Shown: in pieces, positions 8,627-61,200 of the stretch | Layout: each line of letters starts with the position of its first letter | How positions within the stretch are numbered: the first letter of the stretch is position 1 | Notes under the pieces: generated by a model | The model's input: the letters and a program-made list of their open reading frames with translations, nothing else | Told to the model about the DNA's origin: nothing | The model's database searches: none | From: Allacma fusca | Taxonomy: Eukaryota; Arthropoda; Collembola; Symphypleona; Sminthuridae | Assembly (NCBI GenBank): GCA_947179485.1 | Contig: OX359245.1 | Span: 60,933,067-60,997,066, forward strand | Length of the DNA: 64,000 nucleotides | Reading direction: 5' to 3' | Made by a program: the position numbers and the translations under genes

Positions 8627-9063
8627 GAAATCGACAATTCTAAACCAGCTATATAAATGCAATGGGCTTAGGAGATAATTAGATGAAGCTAACTTATATA
8701 AATTTTATTATGTCTATGTTTGGTTTCTTATGGTTTTTTATATGTATATACATATGTAGAGTATGCAATAATTAATATGATTTTAAAATTCATTACCTGA
8801 AATTTATGCTGGTCAAAATTCTAGCCTAAACTAAGCCCCTTGACAAACAAACTTACCGTTACGGTTAAATTATTCGGTAAAAAGTAAAATAAATCGGTTC
8901 CAAAGCACTTTTGTGTATAAAACCAACTTGGATTTAAATCCATTAACGTATTTTGAATAAATTGAATCTAGGTTTTAGAATTCATTAAAGCTGGCATTAT
9001 GTATGTTCATTTTTGGATTTAAAAAAAATGAAAGGGAAAAAATTAAGTTGTGGATTTTAACAG
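8627..9063. other. Upstream region of the intact SMS-like gene
   Basis: AT-rich DNA ending in a polypyrimidine-poor TTTTAACAG that could serve as a splice acceptor at 9063. If so, a short 5' exon lies upstream, but I cannot identify one. Part of the region (from about 9005) is shared with pseudogene copy B. Confidence 0.4.
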
Positions 9064-9075
9064 GTCCATGAGAAC

Positions 9076-10653
9076 ATGAGTAGTTGGGAAAAAATCAAGA
9101 AACTGATGTCCCCATCTACAGATAGTCCCACAGATGATCCAGACTTCCCGAATGAAAAGCTCAAAACGGTGCTGGCATTCTTATTTCTGCAGGTTTCATT
9201 TGTTCTCATTGTCACGTCCATTGCGCTCACCCATGACCGCGTCCCTGATAGAGACAGTGTCCCGCCCCTTCCGGATATAGTCCTCGACAACATCACACCC
9301 CTCCCAGAGCTGATGCGTTTGCCGGATGTTCTAGTCATAATAACATTGTTTCTGGCAGGAGTTCTTATTTTGTTCCATCAGCATCGTTGGATAGTAGCGC
9401 GAAGGATGTTCATAATCTTGGGGGTGCTGTACCTCATGCGCTCTGTTAGCATATACGTGACAGTTCTACCTATTTCGAACCGGACGGTGTACTGCGCTCC
9501 CAAAACAAATATCACGACTTTTCCTGTCCTGGCGCATCGCGTCTGGGAACTCCTTGCGGGAGGAGGGTTGCAAATCAGTGGGATGAAGAAATCTTGTGGG
9601 GACTATATTTACTCGGGACATACCGCCATGCTAGTCATTGGGATGCTGGTCTACAAGGAATGTACGCAACTATTTTTATATTAAAAATAAATTATGAAAC
9701 ATGACAGTGCGCAAACGCTCTACGAGACACTAGATGGTAGTAGCAATTATATTTTCTAAGCACCAGCAAAATAACACATTGTTGCTGAAGGCGTTAAATG
9801 GTTACATGCTATACAGAAACATACCATGCAAATCAATTCGTCTTTGCTTCGACGACATTCTCCTGTTTACCATCCTGCTAGTTATTATGATCGAACTACG
9901 TTCTAAATTAAATCTGTCCGTCAGGAGACCGCAATACTAAATTTTATGTTTGAGACAAGGTATAACAAAACAAACTACGAGATCTATTGGGTCAATAAGT
10001 TACAAGAAAATTTTTCAAACTTTCGTTTTAATTTCCTAAGAAATTTTGAAAATACCTCATTACGCAAATCTTGAATGAGCCCTAACAACTCTTTCGTGTG
10101 CGCATGCGGTACTGGCTGCGCATCTAACGACTTGAATGGAGTTTTCAATTTTTCATGTTCTTGCCTTAGGCGCATACTACTGTAATCTTCTACTATGAAA
10201 ATTGTGCTAAAATATTTGAGTTGCTCTTGAGTTGTATTTAAGCGTAATTTGTTTATACGGAGAATATAGAATGAGCGCACTATTCAAAAATGATATGACT
10301 TTAGAACCCAGATTTTACATTGAGTTTTTAATTTTGAAGATTCACCACAACGCTTGTGGCCACTCCAGTGGTTGACATGGGTCATGGCATGGGGCGGCAT
10401 GGGGATCTTACTCCTGGCCCACGGTCATTATACCATTGATGTTATTATAGGCTACTACGTCGCCACAAGGATGTTCTGGACGTATCATTCTCTCGCCAGT
10501 GACCCAAGTCTAAAAACTAAATCTTCTCGTAATTACCACAGTGAAGTTTGGTGGTTTCGAATTTTCCAGTTTTTTGAAGCTAATGTTGGGGGTCCTTTGC
10601 CAAATAAATACTCTTTCCCGGTTCCATTCAGGTCCTTGCCAAAGTTACCATAA
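9076..10653 (+). CDS. Sphingomyelin-synthase-like phosphotransferase (intact copy C)
   Basis: Two exons, 9076-9661 and 10340-10653, joined across a GTACGC donor and an AG acceptor in matching phase, give 299 residues. The family transfers a phospho-headgroup between phosphatidylcholine (or phosphatidylethanolamine) and ceramide in Golgi or plasma membranes. Signature blocks are present in order: ProLeuProAsp near residue 65, an ArgArgMetPhe...LeuTyrLeuMetArgSer...ValThr block at 109-130, CysGlyAspTyrIleTyrSerGlyHisThr at 174-183, and HisTyrThrIleAsp at 225-229. His182, His225 and Asp229 match the expected catalytic triad. About six membrane spans are visible. It is shorter than vertebrate SMS1 and lacks a SAM domain. 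Reading stays open upstream to a possible acceptor at 9063, so an extra 5' exon is possible. Headgroup specificity cannot be read from sequence. Confidence 0.88.
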
Positions 10654-19190: not shown

Positions 19191-20239
19191 TTTTATTTTG
19201 AAAAATTGATGATACCGTTGATATTCTTATCGGCTACTATGCAGGTAGTGCTGTAATTTGTTCGTTTTGTTTTGTTTTGTTCTCTTCGGAAATGAACAAA
19301 AGTAGAACAATTTGAGTTTTGTTTTGTTCACCGAGTTTAGTTTTGTTTTGTTTTTTGAACAATCCGTATTGTTCAAAAAACAATCCATATTGTTTTGTTC
19401 TACCGATGTAGAAGATGTTAGAAATTTGTGAAATTGACTGACGGATATGCTTTACAACTCTTATTTAATACACTCATTAAACCTTTTGTTGATAGTTTCT
19501 AGGAGCGTAAGGCGTAATGTAATTCCATACATCCACAAGAGCTGAAATGACCGCGTATATAGATATAATATATCAACAAACGATTGTGGTGGGGTTTACC
19601 TAGTGCTACCGATACGCATCGTTTGGGTTCGCCCGATGCCTTGAATGAATTAATTACCTGTATTGTTTTTTTTTTGTTTCTTAGGCCTCTTTTATTTCGG
19701 TGTCTTCCTGTCAACTCACAGTCAGACTAGTTTCAACATTTTAGGATCAAATTAAGTTTATAATTTAGCATCCAAGTCATCCTTCTGCATTTTATTAAAA
19801 ACAACAAAACAAAATCGAATTTCAGCAGTGGAGGTGGCATTTGTCCAACTAAGTACTGGTGTCCAACAGAAATTGCTCTCGTTTACAATATCCGATGTAC
19901 TCAAACATTTAATATCAGTACAGGTTATGGTCATAGCAGGTAACAATTAATTACTCCGTTGACCTCAAGTAGGCATTCTAATTGTAAGTTTCACGTTGTT
20001 CAATAACTTTAGATTGGCCTTAAATCTGTAAATAGTGTAAAGATTTTGTTGACCTTACTTAAGCCCAGCGGTTCACACCATAAATGATGTGTATAGATGT
20101 AACTAAAACCGTGCACTTCAATAGCTCCTAATGGTCATTATGATGTTATTTGAGATTCATTATAGTGTATGTAAGGTCATGGGTCTACTAATAACCCGCA
20201 AAGGTCAAATTAACGTCATGGGAATTCTTGTGACCCATC

Positions 20240-20900
20240 GAAAAATGAGATAATGAAACTCCTTGTAGCCCACTGAAGTCATGGAATTTCTTGTAGCCCA
20301 CTGAGGTCAAATTGAGGTCATTGAATTTCTTGTAGCCCACTGAGGTCAAATTGAGGTCATTGAATTTCCTGTAGCCCACTGAGGTCAAATTGAGGTCATT
20401 GAATTTCCTGTAGCCCACTGAGGTCAAATTGAGGTCATTGAATTTCTTGTAGCCCACTGAGGTCAAATTGAGGTCATTGAATTTCTTGTAGCCCACTGAG
20501 CTCAAATTGAGGTCATTGAATTTCCTGTAGCCCACTGAGGTCAAATTGAGGTCATTGAATTTCCTGTAGCCCACTGAGGTCAAATTGAGGTCATTGAATT
20601 TATTGTAACCCACCGAGGTCAAATTGAGGTCATGAAATTTCTTGTAGCCCACTGAGGTCAAATTAAGGTTATGGAATTTCTTGTGACCCACTAAGGTCAA
20701 TTTGAGGTCATGGAACTTGTTGTAACTCACTTAGGTCAATTTGAGGTCATGGAATTTCTTGTGACCCACTAATGTCAATTTGAGGTCATGGAACTTGTTG
20801 TAACTCACTTAGGTCAATTTGAGGTCATGGAATTTCTTGTGGCCCACTAATGTCAATTTGAGGTCATGGAACTTGTTGTAACTCACTGAGGTTAATTTGA
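20240..20900. repeat. 39-bp minisatellite, variant 1
   Basis: About 16 units of a 39-bp repeat whose core is CCCACTGAGGTCAAATTGAG. Because 39 is a multiple of three, an open frame of 13-residue repeats arises on the minus strand (20188-20730); I regard that as a by-product. It lies inside the hAT-type element. Confidence 0.85.
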
Positions 20901-20929: not shown

Positions 20930-21315
20930 TCCTGTTGCTATTTATGACTCACTCAGGTCAATTTGAGGTCATGTTGCTATTTATGACTCACTCAGGTCAA
21001 TTTGAGGTCATGTTGCTATTTATGACTCACTCAGGTCAATTTGAGGTCATGTTGCTATTTATGACTCAGGTCAATTTGAGGTCATGTTGCTATTTATGAC
21101 TCACTCAGGTCAATTTGAGGTCATGTTGCTATTTATGACTCACTCAGGTCAATTTGAGGTCATGTTGCTATTTATGACTCACTCAGGTCAATTTGAGGTC
21201 ATGTTGCTATTTATGACTCACTCAGGTCAATTTGAGGTCATGTTGCTATTTATGACTCACTCAGGTCAATTTGAGGTCATGTTGCTATTTATGACTCAGG
21301 TCAATTTGAGGTCAT
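20930..21315. repeat. 39-bp minisatellite, variant 2
   Basis: About ten units of a second 39-bp repeat (core GACTCACTCAGGTCAATTTG), with two shortened units. It shares the GGTCAATTTGAGGTCATG part with variant 1, so both derive from one ancestral unit. It lies inside the same hAT-type element. Confidence 0.85.
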
Positions 21316-21724
21316 GTTACTTTTGGGCACTTTTTCAAACTAAGTTTGAAAAGATTATTACCAACTGTTGTGGTGGTTTGTTTGTTATAGTTTTGTTTTA
21401 TCTTATCGCGGTTTTGTTTTGTTCTAGTTTTGTTTTTTCGAAAACTGATTTTGTTTGTTTTGTTTTGTTCAAAAAACAAGAACTGAACAAAAGAACAAAC
21501 AAAACGCGAACAATATTACAGCACTATATGCAGGTACAAGGATGTTCTGGACTTTCCACACCCTTGCTAATAATCCAGAACTTAAAGTGAAATCAGTCCG
21601 TAATTATTACAGCGAAGCTTGGTGGTACCGAATTTTCCAGTATTTTGAAGCTAATGTTGGGGATCGTGTGCCAAACACCTACTCATCACCCATTCCATTT
21701 TGGTCAACGCCAAAGCTACCATGA

Positions 21725-32713: not shown

Positions 32714-34425
32714 TTAAGGGCGAAAAAGAATTCCACTGGTAAAATCTTCTTTTTCAATATCCAGGCGTTCCACAGCCGTAAATTTATCCAACAAGTTCTG
32801 GGGACAAGTTTGAGGATTACTGCTTTCTACAGCATACTTCAAGTATTTAATTTTTTGACGAAGTTTCTCCGAGTAGAAAATCCCACCTGGTAACCACGAC
32901 CCTTCAAATTCTGCCCAAGTGTGTACGCTAAAATCCTTGAAGCTAATCGTATTTAAATTTGGGAATAGCTTATCTAAATCTTCCCCCTTCCGGAAATAAA
33001 GGTATCCTCTGTTGACTCTTGACCAAAGGGTAATTTTTTTGACTCCAGGCATTTCCTTCGGGAAACTAATTAAGTCCTCAGTCTTCAAGGGCCGTACTAT
33101 TAAATGCTCCATGGTATTTTTCCCTAGCTCAAGGAGCTTTTTGAAATTTTGCTTGTTCTGGTTAACAAAAATTATTTCCCTGTTACTTTGCAAGTGAGGT
33201 GTTCCAATGAGCATGGAGGTAATTTTAAGCTTCACTTCAACCAATGGGTCCATCCCCCTGGTCACGCTATCCCTGAAATAATGCTCATAATATTCCACGG
33301 AACGGAGGAGATGCAATTTTTTCATTTGTCGAAGCTCCTCAACCATTGTCAAAGGAAGGCAATAAATTTCCCTCACATTTGGGACCACTTCCAGAAGTCT
33401 AGTAGCTGTAAAATTCTCAAATTTGGTATTAAATGGCTCAAAGTAAAATTTTTGCACGTTCAAATTAACCCAGAAGTTGTCATGTCGGCAGACAAACTGG
33501 GCCCAAAATCCACAGGACAGTCGAAGCTCTTCCGCGTTAGGGAAATCCCGACAATAGATCCCAAAATCCGACCCAGTTCCGTCATCCTGGCTGTAGCCAC
33601 AGAGAAAAAAGGAAGCCACATGATTAATCCCGACTTGTTTGTGCGTCAACTTGTACACCATTGGTCCAAATCGGGTGACAAATTCCCGACATATTCTTTT
33701 CTCACTGTGAGAAAATTGCAATTGTTCCGAAAAATCCAGAGTGAGGTCAATAAAAATTGGAGGTTTCATATTTTTCAAATACTCCATCTCAGCTTCTATG
33801 GTTGAAGATCTCTCTTCAATTTGCTGATCGCCGTATCCCGTTCTAATCTTCACACTCATAGTTCTTGCGCTAATCCAAATTATTTGATAGTCCACGAACA
33901 TTGGATCCGCAATGGATCTCCAGATTGTATTCACATCTCGACACCTCTCCAAATCTCCAGGGCTCAGATGTCTAAAAATCTCCTTGAGAATCTACAAAAA
34001 TTTTTTTTTATAGCTCTGTAATTGGTCCTGAGTAAAAAGTAGGAGGAGTTAACAATTGAGCAAACTCTTTGAAATTCTAGCCATGTCACTATGTGTAACT
34101 TTCTATTTTTTGTTCGTATGTACTTCCATATGACATACTATTTTTAATATTATTTTCTACTTTGCTATTTTATTACGTATTTTTTGTATTTTTACACTAA
34201 ATTTTGATACATAAGTATTCTTGAAAATTTTCTTACCAGAAGGTTGTCGAAAGCCGTCCCAGCAACCACACTTGGACCGCCATGATCGAGTTCTTCCTCT
34301 GCCTTACTTCCTTGAGATGCGCTCGGGGACCGTTTTTTATTTTCATGTCTTTTCAGTTTTTTCCGACTTTTCTTCAAATTTCTAGAAGTTGAGTCACTAT
34401 CCTTTGATTGTTTAACTGGTTCCAT
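32714..34425 (-). CDS. F-box protein with leucine-rich-like C-terminal region
   Basis: Two exons, 34237-34425 and 32714-33991, join through a GTAAGA donor and a TTTTTGTAG acceptor in phase 0 to give 488 residues. The first 60 residues are basic and low-complexity (LysLysSerArgLysLysLeuLysArg), possibly nuclear-targeting. The F-box begins at the junction: IleLeuLysGluIlePheArgHisLeuSerProGlyAspLeu...CysArgAspValAsn...TrpArg, at about residues 64-88. F-boxes dock to SKP1 in SCF ubiquitin ligases. The long remainder has spaced Leu/Phe-rich segments like degenerate leucine-rich repeats, as expected for substrate binding, but no repeat is exact. Large F-box/LRR families of this look occur in springtails. 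The substrate is unknown. Confidence 0.75.
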
Positions 34426-48400: not shown

Positions 48401-49181
48401 GCTTTTGTAAATCTGGATAGTCAAGTCTATGTAGATTTTTTTACATGCAAAGTAGAATACATTTCTTAAAACTCCATATCTTTCTGGACTCGCTATCATA
48501 TCCTTTTAGCATACACTTTATGTACATACGCAAGATAAATTGTAACTATCTAACTAATTTTAATATTATTATTGTATTACTCCCGAAAAAATAAAAGCAA
48601 ACCCAAAATTTATATGGCTGACTGATTTAGGATTATACAATCTCTTTACAGGAATACAATTATCCGATTTTGATGACACAACTACGCCTGACATGCTTTT
48701 CCTGTTTCACGGTCTGAATACAAACGTCAGTGCACAGTAGTGAGTTCATCGGGTACTTATCACTAAAACAGGATTATTTTATTGATTGATGTTCACACAG
48801 TCTGACTGGAATTGATGCATAAATACCGTTTGTCTGCGTATATACATGCATCCACAAATGTATCTGTACATTCAATTTAAGCACATCAGCAATGACTCCT
48901 ATGTACTTACGTATTACTGTGATGCTGGAAACAGTACAGTGCCCATAAAGAGGGATGGAGAAATGAAAATATTTCCTGATAATTCTGAGACATTGAAGCA
49001 AAATCGATCAATCTTAGTGAGTGATTAACTTTTTAAATCTGCCTAGCAAAGGTTATCAACTTTCAGGCCGGCAGATTTTCAGTAATAAAAGTGCTTCTTT
49101 AATTCAACGTAAATATTTGAACATGTCCCCATTTACCACAATGTTACTTGTACTCCTTTTACCGATACCTTTACGTCACAC
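42450..49181. other. 6.7-kb stretch without a supported gene
   Basis: I find no exon with family motifs, no RNA gene and no element with paired ends. It holds TATG-type microsatellite patches (43770-43800, 43930-44000, 46085-46105) and several 60-90-codon open frames, none convincing. The left part must hold the promoter and perhaps the first exon of the aldehyde dehydrogenase. GTTATAGG-type words at 44590-44900 hint at an old mariner-like repeat. Confidence 0.4.
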
Positions 49182-49596
49182 TGTGATGATATTCACTGAT
49201 TTGAAATATGTAAAATAAGTGGATCTACTACCAGCAGTTAAGCTGAAAGTTTACTAAGGTTTTAATGAGAAACAGGACTAAAAACAAATGAACAGAGTGA
49301 CAGCCTTATTGCCAACGACTACATGTAGAAAGGTAAACCGGTACTATTTAAGAGAATGCACGGGAGGGTGCGGACCTAATAGTGGTGGAGAATAAGAAGG
49401 GCTCCTTAGGTGACTAAGTGCTTATTCCAATCTTCCATGTGAATCACACTTCCAAATAGAAGTGAAAGGGCAGACTATGAGATTGCTATCAAGTCAAACA
49501 TACAGTCATCTTAGATTCTTAGAACAGTATGAATCATACACTTAACAATATAAGATACAAGGTTATTCAATGTGAGTAGATATATGTATCATAACA
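49182..49596 (-). repeat. 3' LTR of the copia element
   Basis: 415 bp, near-identical to 55546-55961. Differences include the CTACATGTAG/CTACTTGTAG site and the AGGTAAACCGGTAC/AGGACAAGCCGTAC segment. Confidence 0.95.
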
Positions 49597-49608
49597 CTTT
49601 CCCTCAAT
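49597..49608 (-). other. Polypurine tract
   Basis: On the element's strand, ATTGAGGGAAAG directly precedes the 3' LTR. This is the expected plus-strand primer position. Confidence 0.7.
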
Positions 49609-49766
49609 CTCAAAGGATGGTCTAGAACAAAAATTATAAAATTGAAACAGGTAATTACATTACATTACAAAACGATTCTCCATGTCTAAAAACAAGCTAT
49701 CATGAAGAGATTACACAAGACCTTTAACAGGTTGCATCTCAATCATATTAGTGATTGGTCTAGCAA

Positions 49767-51223
49767 TTACAGAAATTTTCTGAGGGTATGTACTGATCGT
49801 ATATAAATCACAAATATAGCTACAACTAAAATTAATATTACTGCTGCAAGGCAAATAGTAGACCAATAGTTTCGGGCTACATGAAAGTATGTTGGAGCAT
49901 GTAACTCTTCGAAATCATCCGTCTTGACCTCGAGTTTTAGAGATGACCAGTTGACGCTAGGTTGGAAGTGCCAGTTGGTTTTCATTGTGAAGACTGGGTC
50001 AAGGGTTTCAGTATGCTCAAGACTTATTCGGGAACCAATAAACTCCAACTCGTTGATCTTGAAGTTGGTATTGATGGGCAGACTGAATACGTCATTCGAG
50101 CAGTGCCGTTGTATCCCCTCCACGGTAAGATTTGAGCCGGGACAGTACACATAGTACTCTTTATCGCATGGTTTTATTTGAACAAAGTTTCGTTCATCCA
50201 TGGGTGTAGATTTTCTGCAATCATCAATCACAAAATGTTTGGTATCATTGGTGATGGGGTCCTTTGGAAGACATCCTCCAGTTGGGGCCAAGATAAGATC
50301 GTGCCAAACCGGTTGTTTAACGTTAACTGCAAAAACACACTCATTCATACCACCGTCAGGTCTGTACTTATTAGAGGTACTGCAAAGTCCATGAACAGTT
50401 TTTCGCCATCTTCTGATACCCGGCAGGTTTGAGCTCGAACTAAGTGAATTGGGCACTGCTCTCCACAGGGAAGTGTAAAGTTTAGGTAATCCAACAAAGC
50501 AGCATGGGCCCTCCGTTGTTTCCATTGCCTATGTGCCTCAATAATTACAGATTTAGCCAATAAAAGGTTACTAGTTATATATGAAATCGCATAATTGGTT
50601 CCAATCATCTTTCCCTTAAGCTCTTCATGATCTGTTTGTAGGGTTGATAGTTTATCAAGAGCAGCATTACATCGTGTGGTTAGGTTTTGTATCAATTCAT
50701 AGTTATGTTTCACTTGGCTTTCGATACCATTTAACAGCGTTGCCTCCAAGTTAAGCCGACTTTGAACTTCATTTAGTTCCTCCTTGTTGGAAGCGGCCAT
50801 TGCCACCGCGGATATACTCACACCGGCACTAGCAATAACGACCACGACCAGAATGCTTATTCGGATACCAATGAATCGTTTTTGTCTTAAACCGACGGTT
50901 GTCCAAGTTTTCTTTGGGCACATCTTCTGAATCTCATCCAGAAGCAACGTTTGATATGCGAGGTCACACCTTTCACGAGCCGATTGAGTGAGGTCACCGT
51001 GAACCGTTTCATTTGTAAGCGATAGACAGGGGTTGACAAAGTTGATCATAAGATGAACCTGGTGATGTCCAACGGTTACAAGGGTGTCCGTTTTCCTCCA
51101 TAGAACTGGCGCTGCTGTACGTCCCGTATTTGCTGAGGCTACGACCCAAAATAGACTTAACAGACAAATAAAAAACCATGGTGATTTACCAACGTTTGGT
51201 AGTTGCGGTGGTGGAACTTGCTG
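49767..51223 (-). pseudogene. Envelope-like glycoprotein gene of the copia element, frameshifted
   Basis: Follows RNase H in the same frame without a stop. Features in order: a hydrophobic signal-peptide-like segment (about 51128-51187); a short Cys-containing N-terminal part of about 85 residues; a furin-type ArgGlnLysArg site (50876-50887); an immediate hydrophobic Gly/Ala/Val-rich segment like a fusion peptide (about 50789-50875); a heptad-like region; a Cys-rich ectodomain with several Asn-x-Ser/Thr sites; and a C-terminal membrane span of about 20 residues with a short tail ending at 49767. A short N-terminal and long C-terminal subunit recall the F-type envelopes of errantiviruses and baculoviruses. 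The frame shifts within the region where two frames overlap (50345-50525), most likely near 50350-50380, so this copy cannot make the full product. Homology to a named envelope family is inferred from layout only. Confidence 0.75.
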
Positions 51224-54200
51224 AAGTCCAAGCTGATCTCGGTTTGTCTCCAGCTTTCCCTTCAGGAGAGGCTTAGTGAAGCCATCCGCTACTTGATCCA
51301 ATGTATTGACGTACTTCACTTCCAATTCCTTTTTAGCCACACATTCACGTGTATAGTGATGACGTACTTCAATATGTTTGGTTCTGGAATGCATTTCTGG
51401 ATTCCGAACCAATTTGATGGCCGATTGATTATCAACATATACTGGGGTAGGGTAAGCTAGCTGCCGTCCTATCTCCTTCTGTAGGTTTCGCAACCATATT
51501 GTCTCCCGGACGCCTGAGGCAAGGGCCACATATTCGGCTTCGGTGGAAGACAGGACTGCTTCTGGCTACTCCAGCTTATCAATCCGCCGTTCAAAGTTAC
51601 CGCAAATCCACTTGTAGACCTGTGATCAAGTTTGCACCCAGCATAATCCGAGTCGGTGTAGGTTACCATGGACAGATCTCCATTTGCTTTGTACTTGATC
51701 CCTAAGTCTGAAGTTCCTTTAAGATACCTTAGGATCCCTTTTGCCGCTGTCCAGTGCGTTTGGTCAAAGCATGACAAGAACTGTGATAATCTAGAAACAC
51801 TGAAAGAAATGTCAGGGCTAGTACATTTTGCTAGGAATAGAAGAGACCCGATGAGTTGGCGGAACGGTAGTTTGGGGTCACATTCCTTGGCCGGAACAAG
51901 TTCGGTGTATGGTTGAATTGGGACGGACGATGGATTACATTCCATCATTTTGAATTTTTCCAAGAGGTCAGCAATGTACTTATGTTGGGACAAAGTAATG
52001 GATCCACTATCGTCCCTACTGATTTAAATTCCAACATAACTTGAAGGTAGGCCATGCGTAATGTCATATTCAGACTGAATGCGTTTCATCAGGGAGATTA
52101 TGCACTGCTTATCTGATGAGAATACAAGACCATCAACGACATACATAGCCACTATAATCAGGGTTCCTTGAGGCTGTCCGAAAAATACGCTTGGGTCTGA
52201 GTTAGATCTTTTAAGTCCAAAGGCATCGTTCAGGAATTTGCTAAATTTTTCACTCCAGCACCGCGGACTTTGCCTTAGACCGTATATGCTTTTCAGGAGT
52301 TTTAGAACTTTACCCTTTCCCTGAAAGGGAAAACCTTCTGGTGGTTTAATAAGTATCTCTTCTTCAAGATCTCCGTGCAAGAAAGCTGTCTTTACGTCAA
52401 ACTGATATATGAACCATCCTAGGGAAGCAGCCGTGCACATGAGTACTCTAATCGTCTCATACCTGCAAACTGCTGCGAAAGTCTCCGAGTAATCTACGTC
52501 TTCTTGTTGTCTATAGCCTCGTATTACAAGCCTTGCTTTGAAGCGGGCGACTGAACCGTCTTGATTTCTTTTTACTTTAAACACCCACTTTGTGTCAAGT
52601 AGCTTGGCTCCATCGGGTTGATCCACCACTTCCCATGATTTATTTTCTTCCTGGCTTTTGAATTCTTCGCTGATAGCATTCTTCCATTCCTGATTTTCGG
52701 ACGAGGACAGAGCTTCTTTATATGATTTTGGTTCTTCGATTACTCGCGCTGCCATCATTACAGCTGACTGTGCTGGATTATCAGAGCCTGCCTGGCGACT
52801 TCGTAGACGATTCGAGAGAATTTTTGGCACAAACGAGTTGTTCTTCCCTGGACGAAGTTCTCTGGGTAGTGTTATGTTGGTAGTTTCACCAACTGGGACA
52901 CGCGCAGTGAAGTTGCCCTGTGGCGTGGTGATGATTACTTCCTTGGTTTTCTGTCCGACAGTAGTTTCTCTGCTTTCCGCTTCTCCATTTGATCCTTCCA
53001 CTGGAGTTGTTGTAGAAGCAGGTTGAATTTCATTTTCAGTCGTGAACCATTCATCTTCGTCGTCAGATAGTGGTGTGGAAGCGTTTGCTTGTGGAGTAAG
53101 TGGAATGACTCTTTGGCCTGATTGAGGGGTTGCATTCGGAGTTTCTATTGCTGTTTGTGATTCTTTTGATACACTGTCTCTTGGAAGTAAGACTATCTCC
53201 GGCTTCTCTTCGTAGAACTTGACATTACGAACCTCAATGACCTTCTTGTTGCCATCCCACAATCTATATGTGCGATTTTTCGCAGAGTACCCGACGAGCT
53301 TATATGCAACTCCTTTAGCTTCCCAAACAGACCTCTTTGAGTCTGGGACATGTGCGAAAGCATTACAACCGAATATACGGACATGAGATAGAGAAGGTTT
53401 GTTACCAAAGATCCGCTCGTATGCCGTTTTTTGAGTGCTTTGATGGTCCAGGACGCGGTTGTGGATGTATATAACTGTTGAAACTGCTTCCGCCCACAGT
53501 GTCTGTGGTAACTCCGAGGCCAACAGCACTGTTCTCGCTGAGTCCTTAATCGTCCTGATCTCGCGCTCTATCTTCCCATTACTCTCCGGGCTGAGGTATG
53601 GAGCTGAGGTTTCTATTTGAATTCCTTTATTACTAAGGAATGTCTGAAGATCACGGTTGACAAACTCAGAACCACAGTCACTTGAAAATACCTTGACAGT
53701 TCGACCAGTTTGGTTTTCCAGAAGTGCAATAAACTTCTTAATATTTTCGGAAGCTTCGCTTTTGCGTTTTAAGAAATACGCACACCTTTACCCGGTCGCA
53801 TGGTCCTTAATTAATAAAAAGTACTGAGACCCTCTCAAGGACTGAACTGGTAGCTCCCCTGTTAGGTCGGCGTAAATCTTCTCTCCCGGTTGAAAATTAT
53901 TTTCTGATTTGATTCTCGGGAATGGCCCTCTCGACATTTTCCCAGCAGTACAATCTAGACATTGAAAAGATTCTTTTACCTCAGAGAGATCCAATCCATC
54001 CACAGCTCCTTTTCTTGCAGTGTCTAAGATGTACTGGTGATTGATGTGCGAGAGGCGTTGGTGCCACAACTTGGAGCACTTGTTTCGGGGTAGGAATTTG
54101 CTTAGTTTGACATGGACTATTTCTTCAACTGGTCGGAATTTGAGGACATACCCGTCATTATTTAACACATCTGCTGGTCCAGGAGTTCCGTCGGCTTGAA

Positions 54201-55368
54201 AATACTTGACTTTTCCATGCTTTCTGATGATGGCGCACCTCTTTTTCATGTCCATCACGGCTTCAGAGAACAGATTTGCCGCACCAGGTACGTAGAGTAC
54301 ATCGTTGATGGTGCTGTTAATCCACTTTCCATTCATGAATGCTTCCAGAGTTACTGTGCCGGTACCACTTGCCTTCACTTTAACTTGATCAGCAAGAACA
54401 ACATAAGGGGCGTTACCATTAAACATTTCGATGTCGATGAACCAGACTTTGTTGCCGCAGATATGACGGGTAGCACCAGAGTCACTGATCCAGTTTCCTG
54501 GATCATTACTTGAGTAACCAGTTTTAGCAGCGATGACTTCCTTCTCAATACTTTCCGCGACGACTTGTACAACAAAAGCATTGTTTTGTTTAGGATCTCT
54601 ATTCTTGTCAGAATCTTTACCTTTCTGGTTTTGCTGATCGTTTTTCCGTTTTCTACAATCCCGTTTGATATGTCCTGGCCGATCACAGTAAAAACACTTC
54701 CTCGTTTTATGATCAGTACTCTTGTTCTTCTCAAACTTAGTTTTGTGTCCGACAGCAACATACGCCATGGTCCGTTCAACTTCTTCTGTTTTCCCGGATT
54801 TTGAATCTCTTCGAAGGACTTCTCTCTTAATCCGTGACCGCCATACTTCCCTGGTTTGGCTTACTGTTTCTACGTTGTCCCACGCAGTTTTAAAGTTATC
54901 GTAAGCCTCAGGTAGTGCTGAGACAATCTTGGCAACTACATCTTCTTCTTCCAATTTGGACCCCATATCTCGCAAAGCTTGAACTAAATCTTCAATTTCA
55001 TTCATACCTGATACTGGATCTTGGTCATCCGTCATACGATACGAGTAGAACCGTGTCAAAGTCAGTTGCTTGTTGAGACGACTGGAATCCGAGAAAGCAT
55101 GCCGAAGTCGATCGCACATCTGATTCGCTGTTGTACAAGTTGAAACGTGACTTATCTGACGAGAATCCAATGTAGAAGCGATGAGTGATCTAGCTTCCAG
55201 ATCCTTCTTTTTCCATGCCTTCTTTGGAGTCTCATCTTCTGGAATTTTCGTAGTCCCATCGACTATCTCCAGTAACTCTGCCGCTTCTAGCACCAGCGAC
55301 ATTTGAAATTTCCAGGTAGGATAATTTGAACCTACCAATTTTTCCACTGCGTCACTTCTACGAGCCAT
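51224..55368 (-). pseudogene. gag-pol of the copia element, interrupted
   Basis: Starts at ATG 55368. Gag has a CCHC knuckle (CysPheTyrCysAspArgProGlyHis..., residues 225-238). Protease shows AspSerGlyAlaThr at 296-300. The integrase zinc site is His436/His441/Cys470/Cys473, and the catalytic core continues after a TAA at 53788-53790. Reverse transcriptase reads PheLysAlaArgLeuValIleArgGly and AspValLysThrAlaPheLeuHisGly, but the catalytic TyrValAspAsp box is TyrValValAsp (52132-52143). A second TAA lies at 52024-52026. A frameshift near 51550 precedes SerThrGluAlaGluTyrValAla of RNase H, which runs to AspGlnLeuGlyLeu at about 51224. All domains are in copia order and full length. Confidence 0.93.
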
Positions 55369-55534
55369 TTTTAGTTGACAAAAATTTCGTACACTTACAC
55401 ACTCTGAATTTGTAATTGTTCACACGAGTCTTAGAGTTCTTGCAAATTTGTACTAGTAGTAACACTTACCGCATACCGGAATTAATCCTAGCTGTGAAAC
55501 TATTCCCTAGCTAATTGAAAATTTTTAGAACCAC

Positions 55535-55545
55535 GCTCTGCTACC
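55535..55545 (-). other. Primer-binding site for initiator tRNA-Met
   Basis: On the element's strand TGGTAGCAGAG directly follows the 5' LTR. It is complementary to the 3' end (…CUCUGCUACCA) of animal initiator tRNA-Met. Confidence 0.85.
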
Positions 55546-55961
55546 ATGTGATGATATTCACTGATTTGAAATATGTAAAATAAGTGGATCTACTACTAGC
55601 AGTTAAGCTGAAAGTTTACTAAGGTTTTAATGAGAAACAGGACTAAAAACAAATGAACAGAGTGACAGCCTTATTGCCAACGACTACTTGTAGAAAGGAC
55701 AAGCCGTACTATTTAAGAGAATGCACGGGAGGGTGCGGACCTAATAGTGGTGGAAAATAAGAAGGGCTCCTTAGGTGACTAAGTGCTTATTCCAATCTTA
55801 CATGTGAATCACACTTCCAAATAGAAGTGAAAGGGCAGACTATGACATTGCTATCAAGTCAAACATACAGTCATCTTAGATTCTTAGAACAGTATGAATC
55901 ATACACTTAACAATATAAGATACAAGGTTATTCAATGTGAGTAGATATATGTATCACAACA
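55546..55961 (-). repeat. 5' LTR of the copia element
   Basis: 416 bp, the partner of 49182-49596. Right flank CACAC repeats the left flank of the element. The flank continues as a CA microsatellite, so the 5-bp duplication is slightly ambiguous. Confidence 0.95.
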
Positions 55962-56693
55962 CACACACATAAAATGGTAAAAATTTGACTGTCGTAATGC
56001 TCCTGTAAGGAATAAAGCTAACATGTGAATGAAAAATGAGAATAGCAGTCCCGAATGCTACGGAAACCATAAAACGTCCGTTTTTAATCTTGAAAATAAA
56101 TATTTCAGATCTCGAGTAACAAAACGTACAAGGTAAGTAAAGTAGAAAAAAAGTAAAGGTGTCAAATTTCCATACTTTTAAGGCTGCTGTGATGACAGTT
56201 GTCAGCTCATTCGAAAATCTTATATTTCTGAAACAATTTAAAATTATTTCTAAAAAATGCATTGGATGGTGTGGAGTAATGTAAATACTGGTCATTTTTA
56301 TTTCGCCAACCCCTAACTCAGCCTAGAAGGGCTTAGTCATGAAATAATAATCTCCAAATGATGGAATCATAAACAAGTAAATATTGATGCGACGGAATCT
56401 TATCAGGCACAAAAATTATCGTTGCATACACACGGTTCCTAATAATTTGTACAATGCTGTAGGGTTACTAATTATTATCTAGTGTTGTCAAGTATTAGCT
56501 ATTTAGCCGCCCGTTATAACGACATTAGGCATTAACTGTCCAGGTATGTCATGCATGAATTATCTCCAAGGTGTGTGTAGATGACTCGCCATTCAAAATC
56601 CAGCTTCTGTTTTCGAATGAAAGGAATATTTTTCTGCTTCATTCACAAGCCTTCTATCGATTCTTGTTGAAGTACATTTTCTTGAATTGAGTA
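55962..56693. other. Intergenic, nothing recognised
   Basis: AT-rich. Presumably includes the promoter of the gene at 56694. Confidence 0.4.
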
Positions 56694-58272: not shown

Positions 58273-61200
58273 TTAAAAAAATAAAATTTTAACAATAAAT
58301 CCTGCCAGCAGGATTAAAAATACCAATAACCCATGATGGAGCCTTTCCAACCTGAAAAGTTTTTAAAGCATTGAGTGATTATTACAGAAATTGTACTTAT
58401 TGTACTAAATTGAAAACGTCGAAGCAACTCGGTACTGAGTACTGAGCCTAGGATTTACCAGTACATATACGAAACTATCGAGAGATTTGTTTTACTACAC
58501 AGCTTGCATGTAATACAGAAATTGCAGTTAATAGAGGGCAGTTAAAACGATCCGGGAAATAAAAATGATAAACTCGTTGTCTGTATATCTTGAAAGGTTT
58601 ACTCTTTGCTTCAGCTTTGATAATTTGTAGTACTATAAAAAATACAGCGGATTTCCTACATAGTGGCTTGTTTTTAGATGACGTTTCTTTTTGGCATCTC
58701 CAATTATTGGCAGGCATTTTGCCATCTCTTGGGAACCACTATATAGTAAATACACTGCAGCATGTTTCTTTCAAAGCTGAAAGCTGCACAACCTTTTCGT
58801 TAACCGAATTATAGCGTAATAAATTATCAATATCGGCAACTCACCTTTTAAAATTCCGGCGTGCTTTTGGTAGATCTCGATCATCTTCTAACGCAGCATA
58901 CCGCCTGATGCCATTAATTCCTCGGAGGGTGTATGTCTCGTGGTTGAGGGTAGATATGTCAAAATCAAAGCATTCTTGATCGACGGGAGCTAACTGCTTG
59001 AAAAGAGCCTTCGTATTCCTTGTACTTATATCGTAATCCGCCGCTAACAGATCTTCGACAACTTTGAATAACTTCTTTAGCTTGTTGTACGTCGCTACCA
59101 TTCCATTTCTAAACAAAATATGAAAACATAATTTTTACTCAAAATGTAGTTTTTAGGAGAATTTGTTTTTCAGAATTTACACTCCTTGATATTTACTTTG
59201 GCCTTGATCCAACTACCATGAAGGCTCCATCGAGCAGTACACAAGGCATGTAATGCAGTATAAAATCAAGAATTTCCTTGCTCTTTTCATTCCAGGTGAA
59301 TATCATGAATGGATACCAATACATGCGCTTGTAAGGATTATGAGCGTTGGCCTTTACAACTATTCGAAATAGATCTTGAAATTTGAATGGATGCTCCGAA
59401 CTAGAGCAGTGGTACACCATGATTTCCTCTGACGTTTTGACTCCAACAGCAGTGGACATGGCTGCGGCAAGTGTTAGATTGACGACGTGGTCCACTGGAA
59501 CTAAATCAACCACACAGCGACTATTCAAGCGGCAAGTATGAATCAGTCCCCTGGAGATGGCAGCCATGACGCCATTAAACCCGGTCAAATTATCGATCCA
59601 GCCAGGGATTGGTTCCTTATTTGCTGGCGTAACTGTATTGTGAAAAAATATTCCCTACATTACAAACATCTCACTTACCTACTTTGATTACGAGCATTTT
59701 ATGCTTATACACATTTTGTTACGAAATAACATTTACTTTTAGCATGCACCTTTCTCAATGAGGATAAGTAAATGCAAGAATATTGGGTAATGCCACCTCT
59801 TATCATTTGTTCTAAGCAATGCGCTTGAATTATTTATAAATGTTGTGATTTTCTTCTCTATTATACTTATTATATCTGAATATAACATCCAAGAAATGAG
59901 TAAATCCAGGAATAAGAATAATTCCAAGGAACATCATTTTTAGTTTTCTGTGGATTTACTTACCTATTGATGGCCGCACAATGCAAACGGGGATGTCAAA
60001 CCTGGATTCCTCCACCAAAATCTCAGCGAGATGCTTTGAAAAAGTATAGTTCATTAAGTTGTCGCCCCTCAATCTGCATAAAATTAAAGCAATTTCAGAG
60101 AAAAATAACCTAAAAGAAAAATCTGAAATGAAAAACGTAAAATAAATTTTACGATCCATCACTGTTTTCATTTTATCCTCGAAATAGAGGAATAAATGCA
60201 TTACTGTGCATCCATGGAGTTTAGTAAGTCATCTGGTAGGAGTGAGCAGAGCTTTAGAGCTGCGTGAGGACCGACAGGATTGGGATACACCTTCTCGTCA
60301 ATCTTCGATCGTCCGCTGTTTGAAAATGCCGTCGAGATGTGTACGAAAGCCTGTGCGTTGTTGTCATGAAACATTAGAATTTTTAGTAATCTGACCGTTA
60401 CAATTGTTACACAACGCCTACATTTTGCAAATGCAATATGTGCATGTTGTGAAGAATCTGGAGACGCCTATGTAATTCCTTCTACCGTGGTGCTCTCATT
60501 GTCAGCTTAAGATTTGTTCTATGCCACTCTAAAAAAGGTCATAAATAATGTACACGTTCTTAATGGGTCTGGTTGTTACCTTGTGTAACCGGATGTGCAC
60601 AAACAGGGGTGGTATTTTGGTATTTTGGTAATAGGTATTTTATGCATCTAGTGTTAAATGAATATGCGTAATAAGTGGATACGTATAGGAGACATACTTA
60701 TGAATACATATTGTAGCAGTAAATGCTATAAATACATACGGATAGTATACAAGCATGCGTATATACTCGTACGCTGATTATGTTTAGCAACAATACTCAC
60801 ATGCACGGTTTGGTCTTTCGCAAATATCCCTGGAAAATAATTTTTGATTTTCCCCACTAAATCTGAAGTCACTGTTGGAAATTCCAAAAATCCCTAATAA
60901 AAGGTCAACAAATCCGAAAGGCCCTGTTGACAAGAATGTTTCTCCAAACGATTTGCTAGAAAAGGTCAACGAATGTTAGAATCCCTATTTACGAAACAAA
61001 TTTCTCTACAAGACGTCAACGATTTTATAAGCCCTGTTGACCAAAATTATTTCCCTTCCCTTTGAAATTTTCCACTCCTTTTATTATTTTTATGAGGATA
61101 ATTCTTCCCTTTTTTTCATAAAAACCGGATCCCTACTCACATGTGATGAAATTTTTATGATACAAAATTCTTTACAGCTTTTGCAACAACAACTGGGGTA

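Follow-up and report, generated by a model that had tools for sequence, protein, structure and literature searches.

Can a Ty1/copia retrotransposon of an animal carry a viral-type membrane-fusion gene of its own? The question is raised by a stretch of 64,000 nucleotides (the window) from contig OX359245.1 of the springtail Allacma fusca, in which a reading made from the sequence alone had placed an envelope-like gene (env) of the F type behind the RNase H of a copia-type pol. We put a probability of about 80% on the answer that springtails harbour an env-bearing Ty1/copia lineage whose ancestor gained a gene for a class I fusion protein with the F fold, in frame behind RNase H. The copy in the window is dead, a decayed representative of a lineage that is large and includes intact copies. 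The sequence-only reading had called an F-type env in an animal copia element rarely if ever described, and among the best-ranked papers of the PMC literature, plants apart, we found no report of an env in an animal copia element (subscription papers, preprint servers and Repbase lay outside the scope).

The element and its env reading frames

The element occupies positions 49177–55966 of the window on the minus strand and is broken, with env located between RNase H and the polypurine tract (PPT; Table 1). The Pfam domains in the upstream open reading frames (ORFs) follow the order Retrotran_gag_2 (PF14223, E = 2.7e-34), zinc knuckle, Pol_BBD, gag_pre-integrs, integrase, SH3_retrovirus and RVT_2 (PF07727, E = 1.2e-51); the integrase match (rve, E = 1.4e-6) has a score of 28.9 bits, slightly below the cut-off of 32.6. 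The copia-type gag and reverse transcriptase (RT), with integrase before RT, place the element in Ty1/copia, as do its long terminal repeats (LTRs) of the form TG...CA, the 5 bp target-site duplication, the primer-binding site after the 5′ LTR and the PPT before the 3′ LTR. With integrase preceding RT, the pol order is not that of Ty3/gypsy elements (errantiviruses), and RNase H groups with copia RNase H rows in trees that held no gypsy or retrovirus rows as contrast. The primer-binding site resembles the initiator methionine tRNA, which we take to fit the copia-type primer. The gag-pol frame is interrupted by two in-frame stops (53788–53790 and 52024–52026), and the reading frame changes near 51.5 kb and again near 50.35 kb.

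Two open pieces make up the env reading. The N-terminal piece (50348–51223, 292 residues) shares a single ORF (50348–51565) with the end of RNase H, with no stop between them, and the C-terminal piece (49770–50345, 192 residues) lies inside the ORF 49770–50528. The signal peptide, the RQKR site with an adjoining fusion-peptide-like segment, the N-x-S/T sequons and the membrane anchor that had been described behind RNase H were all found at the stated coordinates; they lie on the minus strand and are divided between two frames. The sequons number six across both pieces, and the 19-residue stretch behind RQKR has a mean hydropathy of 2.57. Neither piece scores above the cut-off of any Pfam family. 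The env reading is nevertheless more than a chance ORF, because both pieces align with relatives over nearly their whole length and the first piece has a large number of scored matches in the genome (see below).

Table 1. Features of the env-bearing Ty1/copia element, in window coordinates
Feature	Position	Strand	Remarks
Target-site duplication CACAC, right flank	55962..55966		5 bp
5′ LTR	55547..55961	-	415 bp, TG...CA; 10/415 mismatches against 3′ LTR
Primer-binding site TGGTAGCAGAGCGTGGTTC	55528..55546	-	directly after 5′ LTR
gag, zinc knuckle, Pol_BBD and gag_pre-integrs piece	53791..55419	-	terminates at in-frame stop
Integrase, SH3_retrovirus and RT piece	52027..53787	-	terminates at in-frame stop
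RT end and RNase H start piece	51472..52023	-	
RNase H end	51224..51565	-	open frame common with env N-terminus
env N-terminal piece	50348..51223	-	F2-like part, cleavage site, fusion peptide, coiled coil, start of β-rich part
Signal-peptide-like hydrophobic segment	51137..51193	-	
Furin-type site RQKR	50876..50887	-	
Fusion-peptide-like hydrophobic segment	50798..50875	-	adjoins RQKR
Heptad-repeat-like helix region	50579..50791	-	approximate; from the relatives' model and alignment
env C-terminal piece	49770..50345	-	frame differs from N-terminal piece
C-terminal membrane anchor	49800..49856	-	mean hydropathy 3.4
Polypurine tract GAGGGAAAG	49597..49605	-	9 bases, directly before 3′ LTR
3′ LTR	49182..49596	-	415 bp
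Target-site duplication CACAC, left flank	49177..49181		5 bp

Copies, recent activity and selection in the Allacma fusca genome

The genome (392,743,791 bases in 91 contigs) was searched with the env N-terminal piece, which gave 134 scored matches out of 236 candidates, the window copy included; the count is a lower bound. RNase H is located upstream of env in 127 of the 134. Starting from RNase H, 127 of 150 scored matches are followed by env on the same strand at a distance of up to 1,500 bp (median gap 97 bp); the remaining 23 may be broken, may lack env or may have an env without a score. Of the 134 env matches, 60 lie in stop-free frames of 1,900 residues or more, with exactly 2,146 residues in 21 and 1,958 residues in 11, and stops within the matched stretch are seen in 16. 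Env is a trait of the whole family, intact copies included, and the outcome that the sequence-only reading had named as fatal to it, an env in no other copy of the family, was not observed. Taken alone, the window copy could be read as a viral glycoprotein or host membrane gene dropped by chance into one copia copy; the linkage at 127 of 134 matches refutes this, the 15 divergent genome rows in the trees and the relatives in Folsomia and metagenomes described below speak against it as well, and we regard its probability as negligible.

The gag piece has 91 genome matches. Of the 26 located in frames of at least 1,874 residues, 22 are followed 2.6–3.6 kb downstream by an env of equal frame length (1,910–2,027 residues) and phase, as expected of a single Gag-Pol-Env frame; at the other four the frame given for env is shorter. 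Of 30 loci retrieved, 28 have RNase H and env in one open frame, all 30 keep the furin-type motif R-x-K/R-R and 24 have the exact nine-base PPT GAGGGAAAG no more than 400 nt behind the stop. At each of six further loci RNase H, linker, signal segment, furin-type site and anchor lie in one open frame. At two loci, L052 (frame of 2,216 residues) and L056 (2,202 residues), RNase H is separated from the signal segment of env by a lysine-rich charged linker of ∼130–160 residues that is not present in the window family. Gag-only ORFs of 549–556 residues, with 37–39% identity to the element gag, also occur in several near-identical copies (e.g. L059, C5:54139096–54144948), once as three in tandem with a spacing of ∼2,259 bp. 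They are possibly non-autonomous or host-kept gag genes; the repeats beside two such loci (L057 and L058) have no clear LTR ends.

The insertions are recent. Ten copies were compared, and their LTR pairs differ by 1/608, 7/616, 2/672, 2/671, 3/667, 1/394, 0/448, 0/448, 0/449 and 1/459 mismatches, where the denominators are aligned columns that may include a few flank bases and the second and last pairs contain one and three gap columns, respectively. Flanks of 5 bp are claimed for six of the ten copies and for none of the other four: ATCCT, GATCA, AATAC and ATAAT match plainly, and CTTCA and CAAAC match after an edge shift by eye. The three copies with no LTR mismatches are located at different sites and have 5 bp flanks of their own. 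Two copies on contig C8 have a common 3′ flank, which suggests a segmental duplication. The intact ORFs could on this account be assembly or segmental-duplication copies of one locus, as could also be read from the clusters at C1:22.6–23.05 Mb and C8:50.65–51.2 Mb; however, the 2146-residue family is spread over six contigs (C1, C5, C8, C9, C10 and C12), and three of four examined copies have different flanks and their own 5 bp duplications. Copying of one locus is refuted for this family and still possible for part of the 1958-residue family; as a general explanation it is very improbable. Env-bearing copia copies are concentrated at C1:22.6–23.05 Mb, C8:50.65–51.55 Mb, C9:1.19–1.23 Mb and C10:63.5–63.9 Mb, partly by segmental duplication, and these regions may be nests of a pericentromeric or piRNA-cluster-like kind.

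Purifying selection acts on env. Pairs of equal length with less than 15% nucleotide difference and at least ten changes were used. Locus L026 differs in env from 14 members of its family by 40–42 synonymous and 11–17 nonsynonymous changes (pN/pS 0.07–0.12), and L002 differs from L003 by 24 and seven (pN/pS 0.08); Fisher p is below 1e-10 in all 15 pairs, which carry the weight of about two independent comparisons. Confined to the matched stretch, the analysis gave env dN/dS values of 0.14, 0.10, 0.16 and 0.06 in four pairs and of 1.21 in one with a dS of 0.005; one pair was undefined owing to the lack of synonymous changes, and nine with saturated dS were not computable. The RNase H ends have dN/dS values of 0.04 to 0.71 where these are defined above zero.

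Fold, relatives and origin of Env

The ectodomain of Env is predicted to adopt a class I F-type fold. A model of the ectodomain of relatives (pLDDT 72; a first model from 12 sequences, with a pLDDT of 56, was left out of the fold search) was compared with the PDB using Foldseek, which returned 121 matches at E ≤ 0.001, the best at 2.6e-6. The best 50 of these are all paramyxovirus or pneumovirus F proteins, with a probability of 1.00 and low TM-scores, and the structural alignments have 7–14% identity among the matches listed. The BFVD search gave 20 matches at E ≤ 0.001, with F proteins of negative-strand viruses and baculoviruses among them. The cysteines of Env are conserved. Sequence matches to coronavirus S2 HR1 and phage gp26 were treated as coiled-coil matches and set aside. 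Fusion_gly (PF00523) is found at E ≤ 0.01 in two of 28 members, both below threshold (24.7 and 18.3 versus 29.8 bits), and Baculo_F (presumably PF12259) has no Pfam match at E ≤ 0.01 in the 28 members and none at E ≤ 1 in 14 env proteins or pieces.

The F-type label of the sequence-only reading holds for the predicted fold and is not supported at the fusion peptide in its errantivirus/baculovirus sense. The fusion-peptide consensus of the latter group, GxxxxxGxxxKxxxGxxDxxD (PMC6563192), was looked for behind RxxR and is present in none of the 30 sequences with a proper site; of the 34 sequences given, three lacked a site followed by 25 residues, and P0005, in which a wrong site was picked, was dropped and did not match either. 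Its absence from all 30 suggests that this env was captured separately from that of gypsy. The alternative is that Env was taken from a baculovirus F protein or an errantivirus (gypsy) Env, so that the errantivirus story would have been repeated on a copia backbone. Errantivirus Env is related to baculovirus F (PMC12992720), and the F proteins of Culex nigripalpus nucleopolyhedrovirus (NPV; 2.4e-8) and of Operophtera brumata NPV (5.4e-7) are among the BFVD matches, where they alternate with other viral glycoproteins. Against such a source stand the missing consensus, the lack of Baculo_F matches beside the two weak ones to Fusion_gly, and an env-only profile that brought up no gypsy or baculovirus protein within its reach of shared short exact words; we consider this source unlikely. 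An arthropod virus encoding an F-type protein is the probable donor, and a negative-strand virus is favoured over a baculovirus because of the fusion-peptide type and the matches of the predicted structure; this is the least certain step of our account.

Relatives were sought in protein collections. The env N-terminal piece retrieved two proteins at E ≤ 1, one from A. fusca and one of JGI source, in both of which a copia RNase H end precedes env. A profile of these two sequences reached 2,231 proteins at E ≤ 10, and most of the 120 best match through RNase H. An env-only profile, which reaches only relatives with shared short exact words, gave 24 proteins at E ≤ 10; all 24 match the hidden Markov model (HMM) of this env family that we built, and within that reach no host membrane gene was matched; such a match would, by the sequence-only reading's own criterion, have been fatal to it. 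The HMM matches 35 of 139 collected proteins, 16 of which also contain RNase H (a tally that leaves out four window pieces, two env-only and two RNase-H-only). Capture of a host gene and a chance ORF were both rejected on the genomic linkage, the HMM matches and the env-only profile with its reach of shared short exact words.

The search of related species that had been proposed finds env behind a copia RNase H in Folsomia candida and in metagenome proteins as well. P0006 of F. candida (679 residues, 27 contigs in its entry) is annotated as 'Copia protein' and extends from RNase H through env to the anchor; a second F. candida protein, P0125, is also among the relatives matched by the HMM. P0122 combines RT and RNase H with an env that extends to the anchor, all within 873 residues, and P0123 matches the HMM too. 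The JGI and ENA relatives come, as judged from the source column, from metagenomes. Compared with the genome loci, three A. fusca proteins match at 99.4, 99.2 and 97.1%; the figures against 30 loci are 57–91% for five others and 30–45% for four that belong to the other env clade. No relative came up in IMG/VR when it was scanned with P0122, P0006 and the env and RT pieces. One ENA protein, P0011 (559 residues), has a VOMI (vitelline-membrane-outer-layer) domain (residues 177–332, E = 1.6e-43) between RNase H and env, i.e. a host-like extracellular domain placed before the fusogen.

Separate trees were built for RNase H and for env, and no well supported conflict was seen between them. In a tree of 118 RNase H rows all 14 env-bearing rows fall into one cluster of 20 (SH-aLRT 82), and the env label requires four changes on this tree; env was part of the profile used to collect these rows, so that the sampling is biased towards rows with env. 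Allacma proteins account for five of the six unlabelled members of this cluster; of the five, P0016 and P0019 terminate in env-like sequence and P0018 in a membrane segment. No env was seen in the sixth member, P0096. In a smaller tree, a single branch (93/91, 96% of bootstrap trees) separates 19 env-bearing rows from nine env-less copia rows, which were hand-picked; the smaller trees hold 15 divergent rows of the A. fusca genome. The env tree contains the well supported RNase H groups too, and of 22 conflicting split pairs none has bootstrap values of at least 95 on both sides. Folsomia and Allacma proteins are both present in both clades of the 21-row env tree. A Mantel test over nine taxa (r = 0.594, p = 0.0003) lends weak support, being inflated by related rows. 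The shared clades and the lack of supported conflict fit one gain of env followed by long co-inheritance, with transfer between springtails as a further possibility.

Proposed working, known systems and other features of the window

In the mechanism that we propose, an ancestral copia element would have gained a class I F-fold gene in frame between RNase H and the PPT, so that intact members read Gag-Pol-Env as one ORF. A signal peptide, either internal to the polyprotein or joined to a start codon by splicing, would insert Env into the secretory pathway, where signal peptidase and a furin-like protease would cut it, the furin-type cut arming the protein, and the anchor would hold Env in the plasma membrane or on the surface of a budding particle. 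Particles could then exit one cell and fuse with another, from soma to germ line or from host to host, as in errantiviruses. Eight RNase H–env linkers were compared. Four of them lack Met altogether, the 53-residue linker of the window copy being one; in another the sole Met is at the start and belongs to the RNase H tail, and the remaining three contain Met near or in the signal segment. For some of the families, the linkers without Met point to one of two routes to Env: as the C-terminal part of a Gag-Pol-Env polyprotein whose signal peptide is internal, or by translation of a spliced RNA that would borrow the gag start.

We infer fusion, secretory routing and infectivity of Env from its sequence features. 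Env might instead have an intracellular role, such as membrane targeting of particles or a chaperone function, in elements that are not passed between cells. Its fusion to Pol and the several linkers without Met are unusual for a retroviral env, and other functions have been proposed for plant env-like ORFs (PMC7264820). Such a role would, however, have no need of a fusion peptide exposed by furin-type cleavage, and the furin-type site at 30 of 30 loci, the hydrophobic segment directly behind it, the predicted F fold, the conserved cysteines and the constraint on env make it improbable. The selection on env and the recent amplification argue that env helps the element to spread. Our fullest account is that an animal Ty1/copia lineage has independently become retrovirus-like by taking an F-type fusogen from an arthropod virus, probably a negative-strand one, has kept it in the polyprotein with an internal signal peptide since before the orders of Folsomia and Allacma split, is still amplifying, is infectious or germ-line-infecting, and in one instance has acquired a VOMI domain; we give this combination slightly better than even odds.

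Among the closest parallels are the errantiviruses (gypsy, ZAM and Idefix; Metaviridae), which are likewise animal LTR elements with an env after pol, a furin-type site, a fusion peptide and an anchor, and which share the F-type fold class and recent amplification. They differ in their Ty3/gypsy backbone, in the fusion-peptide consensus that the springtail Env lacks and in having env as a third ORF (PMC12992720), whereas the springtail env lies in the ORF of Pol. TelKA of bdelloid rotifers (PMC5408684) is also an invertebrate LTR element with a captured class I F protein, of paramyxovirus type, but belongs to another element lineage, whereas the springtail element is a copia element with a single ORF in Hexapoda. 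The Sirevirus/SIRE-1 elements of plants are Ty1/copia with an env-like product behind pol; they differ in host and in the contested function of that product, while the springtail Env has a predicted F fold, a furin-type site and a fusion-peptide-like segment. LTR elements with chuvirus glycoproteins, namely a mosquito Pao element (PMC10084718) and Anakin (PMC12440569), have similarly taken a negative-strand virus glycoprotein, although both backbone and glycoprotein are other than here; for Gypsy and Copia, PMC10084718 reports no clear evidence of jingchuviral glycoprotein capture. The F proteins of paramyxoviruses, pneumoviruses and other negative-strand viruses share with Env the predicted fold and a common layout, in which an F2-like part is followed by the cleavage site, a hydrophobic segment, a long helix, a β-rich part and the anchor; the paramyxovirus and pneumovirus proteins differ in the low identity and sub-threshold Fusion_gly scores given above.

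Retrovirus-like elements have arisen from gypsy and Pao-type backbones through viral envelope genes (PMC12992720; PMC10084718), and of eleven env-bearing LTR elements in a silkmoth none is stated to be copia in the passages cited from PMC6563192. An animal copia element with env would add a third LTR superfamily, by a seemingly separate capture of another F type. As the lineage is intact and recent in a sequenced soil arthropod with annotated relatives, the order of gains, the expression of an env that lacks a start codon and a possible role of env in spreading copies from cell to cell or between species become testable. The annotation of P0006 illustrates that the name 'Copia protein' can hide a fusogen.

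Several features elsewhere in the window are independent of the element. Host-type matches are an F-box protein at 32717–33991 (minus strand; F-box-like 7.8e-5, F-box 1.1e-4), a male-sterility NAD_binding_4 domain at 59196–59654 (minus strand; 2.6e-7) and a PAP2_C domain at 9061–9681 (plus strand; 1.1e-5, slightly below the cut-off). The ORFs at 20188–20730 (minus strand) and 21045–21590 (plus strand) consist of the short tandem units NDLNLTSVGYKKF and SGQFEVMLLFMTH and are probably simple tandem repeat DNA.
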